From a virus, in IMG/VR virus record IMGVR_UViG_3300017527_000886, positions 1 through 44,407 of that record: 44,407 nucleotides of DNA; one strand, given 5' to 3'. Position 1 is the stretch's first letter, and every line of letters begins with the position of its first letter. Below are positions 6,994-38,878 of the stretch, one piece after another. A model generated the notes under the pieces. The model ran no database searches. It saw nothing but the letters and a program-made list of their open reading frames with translations, and was not told where the DNA came from. The position numbers were made by a program, and so were the translations under genes.

Positions 6994-7773
6994 TCATGTA
7001 TCTATTTCAAATTGTAATTGGCTTGTATGGTTCTTTATTCTTTTGTTTGTTATATCGATATACTTTTTCTCTTTCTCAATACAGATATAATTCCTTTTTG
7101 TTTTCAAGCATGCAATTGCTGTAGTGCCTGATCCGCTCGTAAAATCAAGAACAGTTTCACCTTCATTTGTGTATGTTTTTATTAGGTATTCTATTAATTT
7201 AATTGGTTTCTGGGTGGGGTGTAATCTAGTTTTGTGATTTGGTGGTAAACAATTAAACTTTTTTATAGTTTTTGGATAAGACATAGTTATATCTTCTGGT
7301 ATAAATTTAATTCTTTTTATTCCGTTTTGTTGTTCGTTTTTTCCTTTTGTAGAATTAAAATCATAATTATATCTTTTTTGACTACTAGCGTTTAAATTTC
7401 TTTTTTCTTTAATTGGATAATAATGACATTGTTTTTGATAAAATAATGAAATAATTTCATGATTTCTCATAGGTTGTTTTTTTGCTAATGCAAATCCACA
7501 GACCATATTTTTACACCACACCCAATCATACTTGTAGTTTTTAATATTACTCATTCGTAAATAACTACTAAATGGTTCGCTTCCAAATAATGCAATAGCT
7601 CCGTTAGGTTTAATAATACGATGTAATTGATCCCACATTTGACTAAACGGTATTACAACATCCCATTTACACGCAGTCGTACCATAGGGCGGATCTGTTA
7701 TAATTGCATCGATTGAGCCGTCTGGAATGTTTTTCATTTCTTCTAAGCAATCACCGTGTATTATTTTATTCAT
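6994..7773 (-). CDS. DNA methyltransferase (N4-cytosine/N6-adenine type)
   Basis: About 259 aa from the ATG at 7773, which forms an ATGA overlap with the upstream gene; an ATG at 7785 is the alternative. The catalytic motif DPPYGT comes first (near residue 28) and the AdoMet motif DFTSGSGTT late (near residue 210). This is the beta-type order of site-specific amino-methyltransferases such as those of type II and III systems. HPTQKP just before the AdoMet motif is also typical. No restriction endonuclease is visible beside it, so it is probably an orphan phage enzyme for self-protection. Confidence 0.85.
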   Translation of the reverse strand: MNKIIHGDCLEEMKNIPDGSIDAIITDPPYGTTACKWDVVIPFSQMWDQLHRIIKPNGAIALFGSEPFSSYLRMSNIKNYKYDWVWCKNMVCGFALAKKQPMRNHEIISLFYQKQCHYYPIKEKRNLNASSQKRYNYDFNSTKGKNEQQNGIKRIKFIPEDITMSYPKTIKKFNCLPPNHKTRLHPTQKPIKLIEYLIKTYTNEGETVLDFTSGSGTTAIACLKTKRNYICIEKEKKYIDITNKRIKNHTSQLQFEIDT

Positions 7774-8009
7774 TGATATTTCCATTCTTCATATAAAGAT
7801 CTTATACAATCATAAATTATTTTAATTGTTTTCTCGTGATCTTTATTAGCTGGTTGCATAATTACAATAACATCTTTTAAACTCGGAAATTCTATTAATC
7901 TATCATGAATTCTATTTTTCCAATCATGGCAATTGTGTTTAGCCGATTCTTTATAATTAAAACATTTTGTATTTATACATTTTATATTTAATACTTCCCT
8001 TTTATTCAT
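7770..8009 (-). CDS. Small Cys-motif protein, paralogue
   Basis: A 79-aa protein whose N-terminal half repeats the KCINTKC...NCHD pattern of the gene at 6341-6523, here as IKCINTKCFNYKESAKHNCHD. The C-terminal half (residues ~35-79) is different and ends in an aromatic helix. The start has AAGGATAAATA upstream. Its stop overlaps the methyltransferase start by 4 nt, so the two are coupled. Likely zinc-binding; function unknown. Confidence 0.6.
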   Translation of the reverse strand: MNKREVLNIKCINTKCFNYKESAKHNCHDWKNRIHDRLIEFPSLKDVIVIMQPANKDHEKTIKIIYDCIRSLYEEWKYQ

Positions 8010-10417: not shown

Positions 10418-10615
10418 ATGAAAGTTCAAAACGGAAAACGTATTAATATTTACTTGCCTAATTTACTTCATGAATCTATGAAACAAGATGCTAAAAAAAA
10501 TAAACATTCACTTTCAAGTATGATTAGAGAATTATATTTAGAAAAATTTAAAAAGGAAAATCGTAACACGAATGATCAAATTCGTAATACGAACATCACT
10601 AAAACATCACTATGA
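10418..10615 (+). CDS. Ribbon-helix-helix DNA-binding protein
   Basis: A 65-aa basic protein. The segment KRINIYLPNLLHESMKQDAKK is a beta strand followed by the first helix, and HSLSSMIRELYLEKFKKE is the second helix, matching the Arc/MetJ/CopG class. These proteins bind DNA as dimers, using the strand in the major groove, and usually repress. It could act on the palindromes near 3121 or 10113. It lies 2 nt downstream of the zinc-finger gene and overlaps the ParB-like gene by 4 nt. Confidence 0.75.
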   Translation: MKVQNGKRINIYLPNLLHESMKQDAKKNKHSLSSMIRELYLEKFKKENRNTNDQIRNTNITKTSL

Positions 10616-11391
10616 AAATAACTGACAAAATAAAAACTATTCCAATTGCTGATATTAAACCGTATAGCAAAAATGCAAAGCTGCATAACAACGACCAAAT
10701 AGAATTATTAAAACAATCGATAAAAAAATATTCTTACTACGCTCCAATTGGAGTTGGTAAAAAGAATGAAATAATTTTTGGTCATGGTCGCTATGAAGCC
10801 ATTAAGCAACTCGGTGAAAGTGAAACAATCGAGGTTATAGATTTATCTAATTTATCAGCAAAAGAAATAAAGAAATTACGTATACTCGATAATAAAATAG
10901 TTTCAAATGAATACGACGATGAATTATTGAAAGCCGAAATTGAAAGTATTTATGGTGACATGGAAAAAAACATAGATAAAATATCTGCTGATTTAGGATA
11001 TACTGAAGAGGAATTTAATGAAAGTTTTAATTTTGAAGATGAAAAAAAAGTATATACGAATAAAATAAAATCACCAATTTATGAAATAACAGGAGAAAAA
11101 CCAACTCATAAAGATTTATATAATACAGAAAAATCTGAAAAATTAATATCTGAAATACAAAATTCTGAAATAAGTGATAATGATAAACTTTTTTTAATTG
11201 AAGCTGCAAAACGTCATACTGTTTTTAGTTATCAAAATATAGCAGAATTTTATGCTCATTCAAATAAAGAAGTACAAAATTTGATGGAAAAATCTGCATT
11301 GATTATTATAGATTATGAAAAAGCAATTGAAAATGGTTTTGTAAGAATATCAGAAAAAGCAATTAATTTATTAAAAGAAAATGAAAAATAA
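10612..11391 (+). CDS. ParB/Srx-domain protein
   Basis: A 259-aa protein. Residues ~10-110 match the ParB N-terminal nuclease-like domain: IPIADIKPYSKNAKLHNNDQIELLKQSI, then FGHGRYEAIKQLG (the GHGR motif) and IEVIDLSNLSAKEIKKLRILDNK. The C-terminal half is Lys/Glu-rich and unassigned. In phages, such stand-alone ParB proteins often lie near DNA methyltransferases, terminases and base-modification enzymes; the domain can bind CTP or act as a nuclease in other contexts. It is joined to the TAGT gene by an 11-nt overlap, suggesting a linked function. Confidence 0.85.
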   Translation: MKITDKIKTIPIADIKPYSKNAKLHNNDQIELLKQSIKKYSYYAPIGVGKKNEIIFGHGRYEAIKQLGESETIEVIDLSNLSAKEIKKLRILDNKIVSNEYDDELLKAEIESIYGDMEKNIDKISADLGYTEEEFNESFNFEDEKKVYTNKIKSPIYEITGEKPTHKDLYNTEKSEKLISEIQNSEISDNDKLFLIEAAKRHTVFSYQNIAEFYAHSNKEVQNLMEKSALIIIDYEKAIENGFVRISEKAINLLKENEK

Positions 11392-12241
11392 TAATTTTGC
11401 AGTATTTATAATTACACATGGTCGACCAAATAATATTTATACGGATATTATATTAAAAAAATGTGGTTATACTGGTAAAATATATTATATTATAGACAAT
11501 GAAGATAAGACATCAGATGAATACTATAAAAAATATGGTGACTCTGTTATTATGTTTGATAAAAAAAAAATAGCAGCTAAAACAGATTGTGGTGATAATA
11601 CTGGTGATTTAAGAACAACAACACATGTTAGAAATGCAACATTTGAAATAGCAAAAAAATTAAATCTTGATTATTTTCTTCAACTTGATGATGATTATAC
11701 TGTATTTAGATATAATATGAATGAAGAAGGATATTATAACACAAAGCAAAATTTAATGAATAATATTAACAATGTTTTTGACTCAATGATTGATTTTTTA
11801 AAAGCTACAAATATAAAAAGTATTGCAATGTCACAAGGTGGTGATTTTATAGGTGCTGATACATCAACTGTTTGGACAAGAGGATTATCAAGAAAATGTA
11901 TGAATAGTTTTTTTTTTAAAACAGATAATCCAATAAAATTTATTGGTAGATTAAATGAAGATGTAAATACTTATTGTATGGCAGCTCAAACTGGTGATGT
12001 ATTATTTACTTTTCCGTATTATAGAATTGAGCAAAAACAAACTCAATTAACAGATGGGGGTATGTCAGAAACTTATCGTGATAATGGCACATATCAAAAA
12101 AGTTTTTTTTCTGTAATGTATTGTCCTTCTTTTGTAAAAATATCAATGATTGGAGTTTCTGATTATAGAATTCATCATAATGTTTTATGGGAAAATGCAG
12201 CACCAAAAATTATTAAAAGAAAATATAAAAAGGATAAATAA
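11381..12241 (+). CDS. TET-associated glycosyltransferase-like (TAGT) protein
   Basis: A 286-aa protein resembling the phage TAGT family. It begins FAVFIITHGRPNN (residues ~6-18), has IIDNEDKTSDEY (~37-48) and FLQLDDDYTVF (~99-109), where the Asp triad would bind the metal-nucleotide sugar as in GT-A enzymes. TAGT proteins are thought to add sugars to oxidised 5-methylcytosine in phage DNA and usually accompany TET/JBP dioxygenases. No such dioxygenase is visible here. It lies between the ParB-like gene and the putative small terminase, consistent with acting on DNA before packaging. A different acceptor base is possible. Confidence 0.8.
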   Translation: MKNNNFAVFIITHGRPNNIYTDIILKKCGYTGKIYYIIDNEDKTSDEYYKKYGDSVIMFDKKKIAAKTDCGDNTGDLRTTTHVRNATFEIAKKLNLDYFLQLDDDYTVFRYNMNEEGYYNTKQNLMNNINNVFDSMIDFLKATNIKSIAMSQGGDFIGADTSTVWTRGLSRKCMNSFFFKTDNPIKFIGRLNEDVNTYCMAAQTGDVLFTFPYYRIEQKQTQLTDGGMSETYRDNGTYQKSFFSVMYCPSFVKISMIGVSDYRIHHNVLWENAAPKIIKRKYKKDK

Positions 12242-12612
12242 TGTCAAATCCAAATATAAAACCACGATTCACAAAAGAAAATGCCAAAGAAATGGGAAGA
12301 AAAGGTGGATCAGCTACAAAAGGAAAAGTCCATTTTAAAACTGCGTTACTCAATACATTAAAAACAGAATTACAAAAAGCAAAAAAAGGTGAAAAAGCAT
12401 TGACTGCTGAATTCATAACAAAGAATTGGTTAATGACTTCTTTAAAAAATCCTGCCATGGCAAAAATAGTTTTAGAGCTTGCCGGTGAATTAAAACAACA
12501 AGTAGAACTATCCGGACCAGACGGTGAATCGATAAAAGTTACAAATGAAAATGATTTTTCCAAATTATCAGAAGAACAATTATTAAAATTACTAGATGAG
12601 AAAAAGAAATGA
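12241..12612 (+). CDS. Putative small terminase subunit
   Basis: A 123-aa protein. The N-terminal ENAKEMGRKGGSATKGK stretch is common in phage proteins next to or acting as the small terminase. A helical core follows and an acidic-basic tail (LSEEQLLKLLDEKKK) typical of oligomerisation or TerL contact. TerS recognises the packaging site. The identification rests on position upstream of TerL and the N-terminal motif, so it is moderate. Its start overlaps the TAGT stop (TAATG). Confidence 0.5.
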   Translation: MSNPNIKPRFTKENAKEMGRKGGSATKGKVHFKTALLNTLKTELQKAKKGEKALTAEFITKNWLMTSLKNPAMAKIVLELAGELKQQVELSGPDGESIKVTNENDFSKLSEEQLLKLLDEKKK

Positions 12613-12932: not shown

Positions 12933-13091
12933 ATGATAACAATTCCAATCCCTATATTTATAATTATGTTATTAGTTTTTATTAAATCAATCACTGTTGG
13001 TTCTGATTTTAATTTTATAGCATATTTTAAAAAAGATAAAAAATTTAAAAATAGTCTTAGAATAGATCATGAAAAAAACAGTATCAAATAA
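12933..13091 (+). CDS. Small single-helix membrane protein
   Basis: A 52-aa frame starting at ATG 12933. Residues 3-17 (TIPIPIFIIMLLVFI) form one hydrophobic helix at the N-terminus, and the remainder is basic. It overlaps the next gene by 23 nt in another frame. No strong ribosome-binding site is visible. This could be an antiholin or spanin-like small protein, but the evidence is only its topology. Confidence 0.35.
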   Translation: MITIPIPIFIIMLLVFIKSITVGSDFNFIAYFKKDKKFKNSLRIDHEKNSIK

Positions 13092-13299
13092 TATTCAAAA
13101 AATAGTCGGGTTGACTATTCCAGAAATTCAAAAGAGATCACCAAAAGAAATAAGAAAATATCTTTCAAAAAAAAATAAAACTTTTATTAATATAGAATCA
13201 CGATTTCCTTTTATTGGTTGTGGAAATGTATTAAGAGATTATTTAATTTCTGAAAAAGAATTAAATCACGATATTGATTTAATTCTTAGAAAAATATAA
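13069..13299 (+). CDS. Hypothetical 76-aa protein
   Basis: A basic protein (MKKTVSNNIQKIVGLTIPEIQ...) that ends in NHDIDLILRKI. The segment FIGCGNVLRDYLISEKELNHDIDLIL vaguely recalls the start of a nucleotidyltransferase fold (G-x-x-x-R-D, DxD) but is far too short to call. It is followed by a strong hairpin. Function unknown. Confidence 0.45.
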   Translation: MKKTVSNNIQKIVGLTIPEIQKRSPKEIRKYLSKKNKTFINIESRFPFIGCGNVLRDYLISEKELNHDIDLILRKI

Positions 13300-13352: not shown

Positions 13353-14807
13353 ATGACAAAACAAAAACAAATTGAACTAGCCAAAAAAGAACTTATTAGA
13401 CGAGAGCTTGCAAGAAAAAATTTAGAACATTTTGTAAGATATCTTTTTCCTAGTTATCAATTTACTGATTTTCATAAACGATATATAAAAATAATTAATA
13501 TGTTTGCTACTGGCAATATCAATAAATTAATTATTTCTATTCCACCTCAACACGGCAAATCAGAAATTTCAACAAGGTATTTAACCTCATATCTTTTTGG
13601 TAAAAATCCAGATTTTAATATTGCTCTTGGCTCTTATAATCAAACATTTGCTAGGAAGTTTTCAAGACAAATTAAAAGAATAATGAAGAATACTAATTAT
13701 AATAATATTTTTCCTAATACACAATTGCCAGGATCACATAGTGGTTATTCCGATACTAGTGACGAATGGGAACTTGTAAATAAAAAAGGTACGTTTAAAG
13801 CTGTTGGTCGTGGTGGTGGTATAACAGGTGAACCCGTAGATATAATGCTAATGGATGATCTTTACAAAGATTATGCAGAAGCTAGCAGCCCAATAATAAG
13901 AGAAAATGTTATTGATTGGTATAAAGGATCTATCAGAACTCGTTTGCATAATAATTCTAAACAACTAATTGTTTTTACCAGATGGCATGAAGAAGATTTA
14001 GTTGGATATCTTCAAGAAAATGAAAAAGTAATTGAAATAAAAAGTTTTGATGATATAAAAGAAAATCAAAATTGTTGGTATAAAATTAATTTTCAAGCTA
14101 TAAAAGAAAATGAAAAAACAAAAATAGATCCTAGAGAAAAAAAAGAACCTTTATGGCCAGAAAAACATAGTTATAAAAAGTTATTAGAAGACAAAGCACT
14201 TGACCCGGAAAAATTTGAAAGTTTACATCAAGGAAATCCCACACCATTAGAGGGCTTGCTCTATTCTCATTTTGCTGAATATGATATTCTACCTGCTGAT
14301 GCAACTTTAAAAAGATTTTATGTTGACACTGCTGATACTGGAAGTGATTTTTTATACTCAATAATTTATTCCAATTCAGGTGAATATATTTATATTCGTG
14401 ATGTTTATTGCTCAGATGAACAAGCGGAAATAACAGAACAAGCCGTGGCTGCTCAATTTCATTATAATAAAATTAATTATGGTCATGTCGAATCTAATAA
14501 TGGTGGTCGTGGTTGGGCCCGGGCAGTAGAACGGATACTCCGTCAAGAAATGAATTATAAATCATTTAATTTAGAATGGTTTCATCAAAGTGAAAATAAG
14601 GAAGCTCGAATAATTTCAAACGCTGGTAACATTCAAAAGTTTATTTTAATGCCGAAAGGTTGGAAAAATAAATATCCTTTATTTTACGAACACATAAGAA
14701 AGTTTAGAAAAAACTTTAAATCGAATGTTCATGACGATGCTCCTGATTGTCTTACTGGCGTTTACGAAAAATCACAAACTGGCTCTTTAAGAATAAGAAC
14801 GGCTTAA
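13353..14807 (+). CDS. terL: Terminase large subunit
   Basis: A 484-aa DNA-packaging motor. The ATPase has Walker A-like PPQHGKSE (residues 64-71) and Walker B DIMLMDDL (163-170). The RNase H-like nuclease begins at FYVDTADTGSDF (near 319-330), has HVESNNGGRGWARAVERI and ends near VHDDAPDCLTG, giving the three acidic residues. Length is normal for the family. It pumps DNA into the prohead through the portal and cuts the concatemer. It follows the putative TerS genes and precedes three structural genes and the portal. Confidence 0.93.
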   Translation: MTKQKQIELAKKELIRRELARKNLEHFVRYLFPSYQFTDFHKRYIKIINMFATGNINKLIISIPPQHGKSEISTRYLTSYLFGKNPDFNIALGSYNQTFARKFSRQIKRIMKNTNYNNIFPNTQLPGSHSGYSDTSDEWELVNKKGTFKAVGRGGGITGEPVDIMLMDDLYKDYAEASSPIIRENVIDWYKGSIRTRLHNNSKQLIVFTRWHEEDLVGYLQENEKVIEIKSFDDIKENQNCWYKINFQAIKENEKTKIDPREKKEPLWPEKHSYKKLLEDKALDPEKFESLHQGNPTPLEGLLYSHFAEYDILPADATLKRFYVDTADTGSDFLYSIIYSNSGEYIYIRDVYCSDEQAEITEQAVAAQFHYNKINYGHVESNNGGRGWARAVERILRQEMNYKSFNLEWFHQSENKEARIISNAGNIQKFILMPKGWKNKYPLFYEHIRKFRKNFKSNVHDDAPDCLTGVYEKSQTGSLRIRTA

Positions 14808-35002: not shown

Positions 35003-36385
35003 ATGCATCGAATTGAAGGTGCTAATAATATAAAAGATTCTGCTGGAAGGTTACAATTTACAGATGGACCTCCGGCAACTACAGTTCCGGCTGCATGGCT
35101 TAATTCTGTACAAGAAGAAATTGCAAATGTTATTGAATTGGCTGGACTTAATTTAAATGCAGCTGGTAATGATACAAGGACTCAATTATATGAAGCATTC
35201 ATTTCTATAATGAGTGATATTGTTACTGAGGCAAGTTTAGGTGAATTTTTAGAAATAACAACAAACACTGATGCTTCAAAAAATAAAAATTATATTACAA
35301 ATCATGCATCAAATAAATTAGTAATTACATTACCAAGTGATTTAACACAAGGTTCTTTTAATGGTATTTATGGAAAAGGTGCAGCTGGTTGGATAATTAA
35401 TGGTGATTATATTTTTTATGGTTATAAAAAATTATTATATTCTAATTTATATAATGATAGTATAAGATTAATAGCTATTAGTTCTACCGAATTAAAAATT
35501 GATTATAGATTTACACAAAAACCCGAACAAGAATTTTATGGCTTTTTTGGTGGTGGTCAAGATATTGGAGCAAATGATCTTGATTTTATAGATCATATAG
35601 ATATGACTGTTTTGTCAGGTAATGCAGGAGATAAAAGCGATCTTACTGTTGCAAGAAGAGCTTTAGGCGGTATCACAGGAATACAATATGGCTTTTTTGG
35701 TGGTGGTCTTCTTTTCGGAGCAACTCAAAATGTAATAGATTATATTGATGTAACAACACTTAGTGGTAATGCAATTGATCGTGGTGATCTTAGTGTCGCG
35801 AGATATTTATTAACAGGTGTTTCTGGTATTCAATATGGTTTTTATTGTGGTGGTACTGGTGGTGCTAATAATGTTATTGATTATATTGATGTTAGTGTTA
35901 CAAGTGTTATAAATGCAATTGACCGTGGAGACCTTAGTGTTGCAAGAAATAGTGTAGGTGGTACTTATGGATTTCAATATGGTTTTTTAGCTGGTGGTGG
36001 TGGTTTTGATACAATAGATTATATTGATATAACATTATTAACAGGAGATGCAACGGATCGTGGTGATATTACTGTTGCTAGAAATTATTTAGCTGGTGTT
36101 TCTGGTATACAATATGGCTTTTTTGGTGGTGGTAGTGGTCCTAGTAATGTAATTGAATATATTGATAACACTTTAACAACAGGTAATGCAACTGATCGTG
36201 GTGATCTTACTGTGGCTAGAGGTCAATTAGCTGGTGTTTCTGGTATACAATATGGCTTTTTTGGTGGTGGTAGTACAGGTGCAGTTAGTAATGTAATAGA
36301 TTATATTGATATGTCATTATTAACAGGTAATGCGACAGATCGTGGTGATTTACAAGGTACTAAACTTGAACTAGCTGGATTATAA
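35003..36385 (+). CDS. Tail fibre with six propeller-like repeats
   Basis: A 460-aa protein. Residues 1-~60 (MHRIEGANNI...PPATTVPAAWLNSVQEEIANVIE) form an attachment domain that recurs in the second fibre at 37472. The middle (~90-150) contains GKGAAGWIINGDYIFYGYKK. From residue 179 there are six ~46-residue repeats of form YGFFGGG...IDYID...GNATDRGDLTVAR...LAGVSGIQ, as in kelch-like beta-propellers. Six blades suggest a closed propeller, a common receptor- or glycan-binding scaffold. Function in adsorption is inferred. Confidence 0.8.
   Translation: MHRIEGANNIKDSAGRLQFTDGPPATTVPAAWLNSVQEEIANVIELAGLNLNAAGNDTRTQLYEAFISIMSDIVTEASLGEFLEITTNTDASKNKNYITNHASNKLVITLPSDLTQGSFNGIYGKGAAGWIINGDYIFYGYKKLLYSNLYNDSIRLIAISSTELKIDYRFTQKPEQEFYGFFGGGQDIGANDLDFIDHIDMTVLSGNAGDKSDLTVARRALGGITGIQYGFFGGGLLFGATQNVIDYIDVTTLSGNAIDRGDLSVARYLLTGVSGIQYGFYCGGTGGANNVIDYIDVSVTSVINAIDRGDLSVARNSVGGTYGFQYGFLAGGGGFDTIDYIDITLLTGDATDRGDITVARNYLAGVSGIQYGFFGGGSGPSNVIEYIDNTLTTGNATDRGDLTVARGQLAGVSGIQYGFFGGGSTGAVSNVIDYIDMSLLTGNATDRGDLQGTKLELAGL
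35537..36382 (+). repeat. Six tandem coding repeats (~140 bp)
   Basis: Six in-frame units in the first fibre, each beginning with TATGGCTTTT or a close variant and containing a GATCGTGGTGAT-like core. They vary mainly just after the GGTGGTGGT block, so variation is local. Recombination with the second fibre's units is possible. Confidence 0.75.
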
Positions 36386-36779: not shown

Positions 36780-37484
36780 ATGAGTATTATAGATAAAATA
36801 AAACAACAATCTTATGAAGGTTCAAATAAAAAATTTAATGAATTAAAAAAATCATTTTTAGAAATGAGCCAAATTAAATCCGAATTTGATATGGAAAAAT
36901 TAACTGGAAAAAAAAATGGTAATTTTGTAGCACATAATTACCATTTTTTAATTCGTCAATATTCCTTAACACTTGGTGAAGTACGCAGAATGTATCTTGA
37001 CAAAGAAGAAAAAATTAGGCAAATTGAAGATTTAAAAAAAATGGAAACAGAAAGATTTAATGATGAAACTGGCAATGTGAAATATGTTGATATAGAAATC
37101 AACAGACTTGAAAATCAAATTGACCAACTTGAGTTAGATATTGCGAATAAAGCATATAGGTGTGATTATTATGAAAAATTAAGATTAAAATTAATTGAAA
37201 TTAATAATAATAAAGAGCCAACAAATGAAGAATATCAAAAAGAAGAGCCTGATTATATTAAATGGGCATTAGAAAAAGAAATGTATCATGATTTGGTTAG
37301 TCGTCAAACTGGTTTAAGGATTGGTGTACTTGATAATATTGAAATGTTAGAGGATAAACCATTGTTAAATAATAATTTTCAAAGGTTAATTGATAAAAAA
37401 ATGGATTTAGAAAAATTTCAAATAGATTTTAAAAAAAATCAAAAATTAGATAATTTTTATGATAATAAAAAATGCATAGAATAG
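36780..37484 (+). CDS. Coiled-coil protein between fibre genes
   Basis: A 234-aa protein. Residues ~75-135 are a Lys/Glu/Leu coiled coil (KEEKIRQIEDLKKMETERF, VDIEINRLENQIDQLELDI). No family is recognised. Its end overlaps the second fibre gene by 13 nt, which links its translation to that fibre. It may be an assembly chaperone or a fibre-connecting protein, by position only. No strong SD. Confidence 0.5.
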   Translation: MSIIDKIKQQSYEGSNKKFNELKKSFLEMSQIKSEFDMEKLTGKKNGNFVAHNYHFLIRQYSLTLGEVRRMYLDKEEKIRQIEDLKKMETERFNDETGNVKYVDIEINRLENQIDQLELDIANKAYRCDYYEKLRLKLIEINNNKEPTNEEYQKEEPDYIKWALEKEMYHDLVSRQTGLRIGVLDNIEMLEDKPLLNNNFQRLIDKKMDLEKFQIDFKKNQKLDNFYDNKKCIE

Positions 37485-38878
37485 AAGGTGAAAACCATAT
37501 TAATGTAGATGGTGATTTTCTTTTTAAAGAGCAACCACCATCTACAAAATTACAAGCTGCATGGCTTAATTCTATACAAGAAGAAATTGCATATATTATT
37601 GAGACAATAGGTGAACAATTATATTCTGCTTCAAATGATTTAAACAATCAATTATCAAGCAATTTGGAAGATTTTTTTAATTTTTTTTATACTTTTGAAT
37701 ATTTTATAAAACTATATAATCAAAGAACTGATACAATAACAGCTGATCAATTATCAAGTGCAAATAGAATATATATAACAAATTCAACAAATAGACTTGA
37801 AATTGAAATACCATCTACATTTTCATTAGGACAATTTGTAAAAGCTGAGGGAAAAGGAGCTGGCGGTTGGAAAATTAAAGGAAATTTTGTTTTTCTTGGT
37901 TATAAGAAATATTTATTATCAACTAATTTTAATGATAAAATTACTTTAATTTTTGCAAATGATAATTCAATTGTTATGCAAGATAATAATTTTGAATATA
38001 TTAAACAATTAGGTTTTTTTGGTGGGGGAGAAGATCCAGTAGATAAAAACGAAATAGAATATATTGATATGTCAATAATTTCAGTTGTAAATGCCGTGGA
38101 TCGTGGGGATCTTACTGTGGCTAGAGCATTTTTAGCTGGAGTTTCCGGAATTCAATATGGATTCTATGGTGGGGGTGATATAGTTGGTGTTGCTAATAAC
38201 ACAATAGATTCAATCGATACAACATTAACTACAGGTAATGCGATAGATCGTGGAAATCTTACTGTAACTAGAACAGGATTATCCGGGATATCTGGTATTC
38301 AATACGGATTTTTTGGTGGAGGAGATTCAGGAGGATTCAAAAATGAAATAGACTATATTGATATATCAATTGTTTCAGTTGTTAATGCTGTGGATAGGGG
38401 GGATCTTACTGTGGCTAGAAGTGTTTTAGCCGGAGTTTCCGGAATTCAATATGGATTCTATGGTGGGGGATGGACTGGTGCAAGTAGAAATGAAATAGAA
38501 TATATTGATATGATAGTAATATCAGTTGTTAATGCCGTGGATCGCGGGGATCTTACTGTAGGTAGAAGAGAAATAGCTGGAGTTTCCGGAATTCAATATG
38601 GATTCTATGGTGGAGGAGAATCAGCAGGATACAGAAATGAAATAGATTATATTGATACGACAATTGTTTCAGTTGTTAATGCTGTGGATAGGGGAGATCT
38701 TGTTGTTGTTAGAGGTGGTATGGCAGGAATATCAGGAAGCCAATATGGTTTCTTTGGTGGGGGATATAGTGGTGTTTATCGAGATGAAATCGATTCAATA
38801 GATATAATATTAACTACAGGTAATGCTATTGATCGCGGAAATCTCACTGTGGCAACATCGGTTTTGGCCGGAGTTTGA
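37472..38878 (+). CDS. Second tail fibre, paralogue with six repeats
   Basis: A 468-aa paralogue of the fibre at 35003. It shares the N-terminal domain (MHRIEGENHINVDG...PPSTKLQAAWLNSIQEEIAYIIE), the middle GKGAGGWKIKGNFVFLGYKKY and six ~48-residue repeats from residue 180 (YGFYGGG...IDYID...VNAVDRGDLTVAR...LAGVSGIQ). Repeat units are more like each other than like those of the first fibre, suggesting concerted evolution. Probably an alternative or partner receptor-binding fibre. Confidence 0.8.
   Translation: MHRIEGENHINVDGDFLFKEQPPSTKLQAAWLNSIQEEIAYIIETIGEQLYSASNDLNNQLSSNLEDFFNFFYTFEYFIKLYNQRTDTITADQLSSANRIYITNSTNRLEIEIPSTFSLGQFVKAEGKGAGGWKIKGNFVFLGYKKYLLSTNFNDKITLIFANDNSIVMQDNNFEYIKQLGFFGGGEDPVDKNEIEYIDMSIISVVNAVDRGDLTVARAFLAGVSGIQYGFYGGGDIVGVANNTIDSIDTTLTTGNAIDRGNLTVTRTGLSGISGIQYGFFGGGDSGGFKNEIDYIDISIVSVVNAVDRGDLTVARSVLAGVSGIQYGFYGGGWTGASRNEIEYIDMIVISVVNAVDRGDLTVGRREIAGVSGIQYGFYGGGESAGYRNEIDYIDTTIVSVVNAVDRGDLVVVRGGMAGISGSQYGFFGGGYSGVYRDEIDSIDIILTTGNAIDRGNLTVATSVLAGV
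38009..38875 (+). repeat. Six tandem coding repeats in second fibre
   Basis: Six in-frame units of about 145 bp. The DNA is highly similar among units (for example GGAATTCAATATGGATTCTA recurs), so slippage or unequal recombination could change blade number or swap blades. Confidence 0.75.

Follow-up and report, generated by a model that had tools for sequence, protein, structure and literature searches.

A common phage gene pair of a ParB-like protein with a TAGT partner domain and a TAGT glycosyltransferase, probably for DNA glycosylation

To our knowledge, the known sugar modifications of DNA all rely on a hydroxymethyl or hydroxy pyrimidine that has been formed beforehand, and the phage glycosyltransferase systems called TAGT were reportedly defined in a paper of 2013. 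The TAGT of phages T2 and T6, a beta-glucosyl-HMC-alpha-glucosyltransferase, makes glucosylated DNA and follows a dCMP hydroxymethylase, not a TET enzyme (PMC13216743). A GT-A fold has been reported for the T6 enzyme, which is assigned to family PF20691 (PMC13216743). Other phage TAGT systems are associated with TET/JBP oxygenases and are likewise predicted to act on DNA. The alpha-glucosyltransferase of T4, a GT-B enzyme with an hmC acceptor, binds the gp45 clamp (PMC13216743). Finally, solitary TAGTs, flagged as possible novel transferases without explanation, were reported in 2026 for 288 of 753 phage genomes that bear glycosyltransferases (PMC13216743). An earlier note on the DNA described here, which held that known TAGTs go with TET/JBP oxygenases, was therefore too narrow.

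The window, by which we mean the whole stretch of DNA analyzed, is an IMG/VR contig of 44,407 bases with 28% GC. No end repeats were found in it, so its early region is incomplete on the left side. As the earlier note had described, a ParB-like gene (10612-11391, + strand, 259 aa) overlaps a TAGT gene (11381-12241, + strand, 286 aa), the overlap being 11 bases (11381..11391, + strand), and the two frames are likely to be translationally coupled. The ParB-like gene is preceded by a gene for an RHH-like small protein (10418..10615, + strand; RHH_5, E 1.8e-5, just below the cut-off). The pair was also said to lie directly before a putative small terminase gene; the adjacency holds (12241..12612, + strand), and the product is a probable small terminase subunit by position only, with no family match in Pfam and PHROG profile searches. 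The large terminase subunit (13353..14807, + strand) is solidly identified from its matches to PF03237, PF22530 and phrog_38 (E 8.5e-94). Between the terminase genes lies a 76-aa ORF (13069-13299, + strand) whose weak similarity to the beginning of V. cholerae RfbT (E 0.007) falls short of the cut-off. Two amino-methyltransferases had been listed as well: one (6994-7785) is clearly an N6/N4 methyltransferase, and the other, at 124-777, matches phrog_799 and is a divergent DNA methyltransferase.

Further to the right, two proteins encoded at 35003-36385 and 37472-38878 (+ strand) have a common C-terminal family, phrog_19111; the first carries a tail-fibre N-terminus, so that the second could serve as another fibre tip or as an adhesin. 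The right 5.5 kb consist of pseudaminic-acid/flagellin glycosylation genes located directly behind a tail-fibre-like phage gene (38884-44347, - strand): a Maf/PseD-like flagellin glycosyltransferase, a PseH-like gene, PseB and PseI/NeuB, which is cut by the contig end. These genes were considered as a source of the TAGT sugar donor, an idea that was dropped. Maf is found in essentially no viral contig, and the block is therefore most likely the flagellin glycosylation locus of the host chromosome, i.e. a prophage border.

Profile search and structure prediction bore out the identification of the 286-aa protein as a TAGT. It matches PF20691, the family of the T6 enzyme, with a score of 109.7 bits where 27.5 would suffice (E 2.5e-31), and phrog_842 (E 4e-60). 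Its AF2 model (pLDDT 92.5) has a GT-A fold and aligns with ppGalNAc-T2 (GalNAc-T2) over 223 residues at 4.3 A (Z 14.2); protein and polysaccharide GT-A enzymes are the nearest solved folds, and the TAGT profile gave no match to PDB sequences. The DDD metal motif occupies residues 103-105 (11687-11695), and D104, D105, K172, D194 and H266 are invariant in an alignment of 72 sequences. The T6 TAGT is only 15% identical to the window protein, and the T4 alpha-glucosyltransferase is unrelated to it in sequence. TAGT loci in genome contigs were recovered by alignment search; a single-protein search gave none. Some loci have two or three tandem, non-identical TAGT genes (L042, L097, L110, L170, L186, L191 and L208) and one has two TPD-TAGT pairs (L127; TPD is described below), which suggests sequential sugar additions. 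One human-gut phage that carries the ParB-TPD-TAGT pair encodes a radical SAM protein between TAGT and terminase (L010:13941-14903).

The new element of the locus is the C-terminus of the ParB-like protein, an unnamed domain of about 115 aa that we named TPD, for TAGT partner domain (residues 145-259; 11044..11388, + strand). It is all-helical in the model and carries the signature YT.K...P.YEPTG ... RH..FNY..IAEYYAHA..E.Q.LME.SALVIID...AI.NGY. Y148, Y157, F194, R201, A211, Y214, E226, D234 and G242 are invariant in alignments of 10 and 87 sequences, and H202 is nearly so. TPD belongs to no family in Pfam or NCBIfam, and the best hit of its profile among solved structures is at chance level (E 0.02). 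As part of the whole-protein model it gave no match to solved structures, though by itself it may have a known fold. The linkage of TPD to TAGT is strict. TAGT was present in all 28 records with TPD in a phage collection and in all 77 further IMG/VR loci found by a TPD query; conversely, TPD was present in 77 of the 79 further IMG/VR loci found by a TAGT query, the other two of which begin at contig edges, and 40 of 40 GTDB loci had both. Because each scan contributed its best-scoring loci, the counts describe the TPD-type branch rather than all TAGTs; the TAGTs of T6 and of one terminase relative (L227) have no TPD. The TPD and TAGT genes mostly overlap or sit within about 30 bases of each other in related loci (-10 to +29 bases). 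A TerL family was found 3' of TAGT in 116 of 178 related loci and a TerS-like family begins at the TAGT end in 81 of the 178, and apart from terminases no neighbour family recurs as often as TPD.

The domain in front of TPD in the window is a ParB-N domain of the ParB/Srx fold (about residues 1-140; 10612..11031, + strand), with a GHGR motif at residues 57-60. The Pfam ParB_N profile gave 19.2 bits, below the cut-off of 26.3, and phrog_620 matched with E 7e-42. In the AF2 model the ParB-N block has pLDDT mostly above 90, and the modelled domain aligns with solved ParB/Noc N-domains (Myxococcus ParB: Z 13.7, 92 residues, 2.2 A). The central HTH and C-terminal dimerisation domains of canonical ParB were not recognised by Pfam, and TPD occupies the C-terminal part.

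TPD is fused to ParB-N in 179 of 222 instances, while 33 have no recognised ParB-N; the remainder lie at contig edges or accompany a separate ParB-N. The short N-terminus of the standalone TPDs very often reads MKQ.NLFG. A QxxLF/MF/IF motif is present in 17 of 29 standalone TPDs, where shuffling predicts 0.57 and gave no more than 4 in 2000 rounds, a comparison that overstates independence since the rows are related, and a motif of the QxxLF type is present in one of 140 ParB-fused TPD proteins. Inspection of the window protein, which is ParB-fused, revealed no N-terminal clamp motif. The consensus for binding to the bacterial sliding clamp is QL(S/D)LF (PMC9690074), and the N-terminal motif of the standalone TPDs fits it. 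At least 3-6 changes between the clamp and ParB labels are seen on the TAGT tree, and the window TAGT, of the ParB type, clusters with two clamp-type TAGTs with 95% local support. Judged by sequence, ParB-N and the clamp peptide are interchangeable on this tree. Recruitment of the clamp-motif variants would resemble that of the T4 alpha-glucosyltransferase, a clamp-recruited DNA glucosyltransferase. In one locus (L003) TPD-TAGT lies directly 5' of a phage sliding clamp/processivity factor (phrog_947), and Vibrio phage phiKT1024 has a TPD-only gene among its replication genes.

ParB-N also has other partners. The window domain matches the ParB part of phrog_498 (E 2e-29), a family of ParB/N6-N4 methyltransferase fusions that occupy the same place directly 5' of the terminase and differ in having a methyltransferase, not TPD, fused to the homologous ParB-N. 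Among phages with the terminase family of the window, ParB-N is fused to a methyltransferase in three (L238, L248 and L266); in another (L239) a ParB-N gene is followed by Mom (PF25680, 1.4e-47) and then by terminase, the order seen in the window, though Mom, which performs adenine methylcarbamoylation, is not a glycosyltransferase and has no TPD. In L227 ParB-N precedes a second TAGT lineage. The ParB-N domains of these relatives share 68-89% identity with one another and 24-29% with that of the window, and the same ParB-N as in the methyltransferase, Mom and second-TAGT relatives carries TPD-TAGT in L002. Upstream of the terminase in 50 terminase relatives we found nothing recognised, ParB-methyltransferase, ParB-Mom, ParB-TAGT2 or others, and no TPD-TAGT pair within 3.5 kb, a distance that many of the contigs do not reach. 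These gene arrangements indicate that ParB-N serves phages as a general adaptor for enzymes that modify DNA. An ABC/AAA-type ATPase (L264:6222-7465) and an unnamed 144-aa protein (L261:5462-6390), each encoded after a ParB-N gene 5' of the terminase, are possible further partners. The TPD, the clamp-motif variants and the interchangeable ParB-N had been overlooked in the earlier reading and are what is informative about the locus.

It had been noted before that no TET/JBP, thymidylate-synthase-like or hydroxymethylase gene is visible in the window, and our family searches agreed: no member of the Tet_JBP, thymidylate-synthase/hydroxymethylase or C5-methylase families was found in its 44,407 bases. 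Tet_JBP was absent from all 58 records searched, namely the window, 56 others with related TAGTs and T6, 57 of which hold TAGTs of the window's branch; this sets the branch apart from the TET/JBP-associated systems with which it shares its glycosyltransferase family name. Many IMG/VR records are fragments, and the absence claim rests mainly on the sample size and on five complete phage genomes of 32-65 kb: Lactobacillus phages c5 and jlb1, Haloarcula virus HHTV-2, Nocardia phage NTR1 and Porphyromonas phage005b. All five have the same pair, and TET, hydroxymethylase (PF00303) and C5-methylase are absent from each. TET is also absent from the whole genome of an E. coli strain that carries the pair (G048). 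The TET search detected the divergent TET of mycobacteriophage Nigel (gp2, E 4e-8) and the PF00303 search detected T6, whose TAGT adjoins its own dCMP hydroxymethylase and has neither ParB nor TPD beside it. Non-control matches came from only two of 38 records: phage phiKT1024 encodes a full-length thymidylate synthase and contig G034 a C5-methylase. The earlier note had left two explanations, an enzyme outside the window or another acceptor. As complete genomes with the same pair also lack these enzymes, contig truncation does not account for the missing TET, and a different acceptor is the better reading. A literature search found no paper reporting DNA modification of a TPD-TAGT phage and nothing relevant on the bases that make up the DNA of HHTV-2 or of L. 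delbrueckii phages.

We consider it likely that ParB-TPD-TAGT is a phage DNA base-glycosylation module, and we infer its DNA substrate, protein-protein coupling, timing and function as follows. ParB-N would bring the complex to DNA, a task that the sliding-clamp-binding peptide would take over in the sister systems, and TPD would physically couple the targeting module to TAGT. The GT-A enzyme would then move a sugar from a nucleotide-sugar donor onto a base of already polymerised phage DNA, around the time of replication and packaging, and the sugar would shield the phage DNA against host nucleases. DNA is a likely substrate because of the strict TPD linkage, the exchange of ParB for the clamp motif and the fact that Mom and methyltransferases also go with ParB-N. 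Candidate acceptors are a plain base, a base prepared by TPD or one prepared by an unrecognised enzyme. Given the preformed acceptors of known systems, the acceptor gap is a real difficulty for the DNA-glycosylation reading. Mom, however, modifies ordinary adenine, so a ParB-linked enzyme need not have a preformed acceptor. With somewhat less than even chance, the complex may place the sugar directly on a plain base within polymerised DNA, or on a base that TPD activates as part of the reaction.

Alternatively, TPD or ParB-TPD itself might prepare the acceptor, for instance by hydroxylating or activating the base, after which TAGT would glycosylate it. No other protein accompanies TAGT in every locus as TPD does, and the invariant polar residues of TPD (Y148, Y157, R201, Y214, E226 and D234, with H202 near-invariant) could be read in this way; a domain of about 115 aa, all-helical in the model, with no recognised cofactor motif and no structural match, and the second TAGT lineage of L227, which pairs with ParB-N without TPD, make this unlikely. 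Ordinary glycosylation of a hydroxymethyl base, such as the hydroxymethylcytosine on which the T6 TAGT acts, would call for a hydroxylase or hydroxymethylase that is encoded elsewhere by the phage or the host and has escaped recognition. The window lacks its left end, many of its early proteins are unnamed, and such a hydroxylase may lie elsewhere in the genomes of TPD-TAGT phages, which encode many unnamed proteins; yet with TET, thymidylate-synthase-like and C5-methylase genes absent from the five complete genomes, TET absent from the entire G048 genome and the controls working, we regard this too as improbable.

A protein target (e.g. terminase or a capsid protein) or an RNA target, instead of DNA, would suit the resemblance of the TAGT model to protein and polysaccharide GT-A enzymes and the position of the gene within the terminase operon, but it is very unlikely given the ParB-N shared with a DNA methyltransferase and Mom, the clamp-binding peptides and the action of the T2/T6 family member on DNA. 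Plasmid-style partitioning with a chance neighbour, to which the database label 'ParB-like partition protein' for the first gene would point, is refuted for the family, there being no ParA, no recognised HTH and dimer domains, with TPD in their place, and strict TAGT linkage in about 200 loci.

The pair reaches well into E. coli. A Rac-type copy is intact over at least 80% of the pair in 885 of 5,426 complete E. coli genomes (~16%), and TAGT alone is found in 865 of the 5,426; RefSeq names it 'hypothetical protein' and, in one case seen, 'GREB1-related protein'. In the Rac prophage of K-12, a deletion between ynaK and ydaY has removed TPD and TAGT (L268, E. coli MG1655 1425377-1425980). MG1655 keeps only a YnaK of 87 aa and no TAGT, which makes K-12 a natural null for expression tests.

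Solitary TAGTs were already known; the TPD, the exchange of ParB for the clamp motif and the ParB-N common to other modifying enzymes are new. In all, this two-gene module is common yet uncharacterised and probably decorates phage DNA with sugar. The TPD linkage, the targeting exchange and the shared ParB-N reduce the acceptor question to a short experiment. Glycosylation of a plain base, if true, would mean sugar-decorated DNA without a hydroxymethyl-pyrimidine precursor in phages and prophages of many phyla, including those of the E. coli Rac type, and would add a new chemistry to DNA, probably one in widespread use against restriction.
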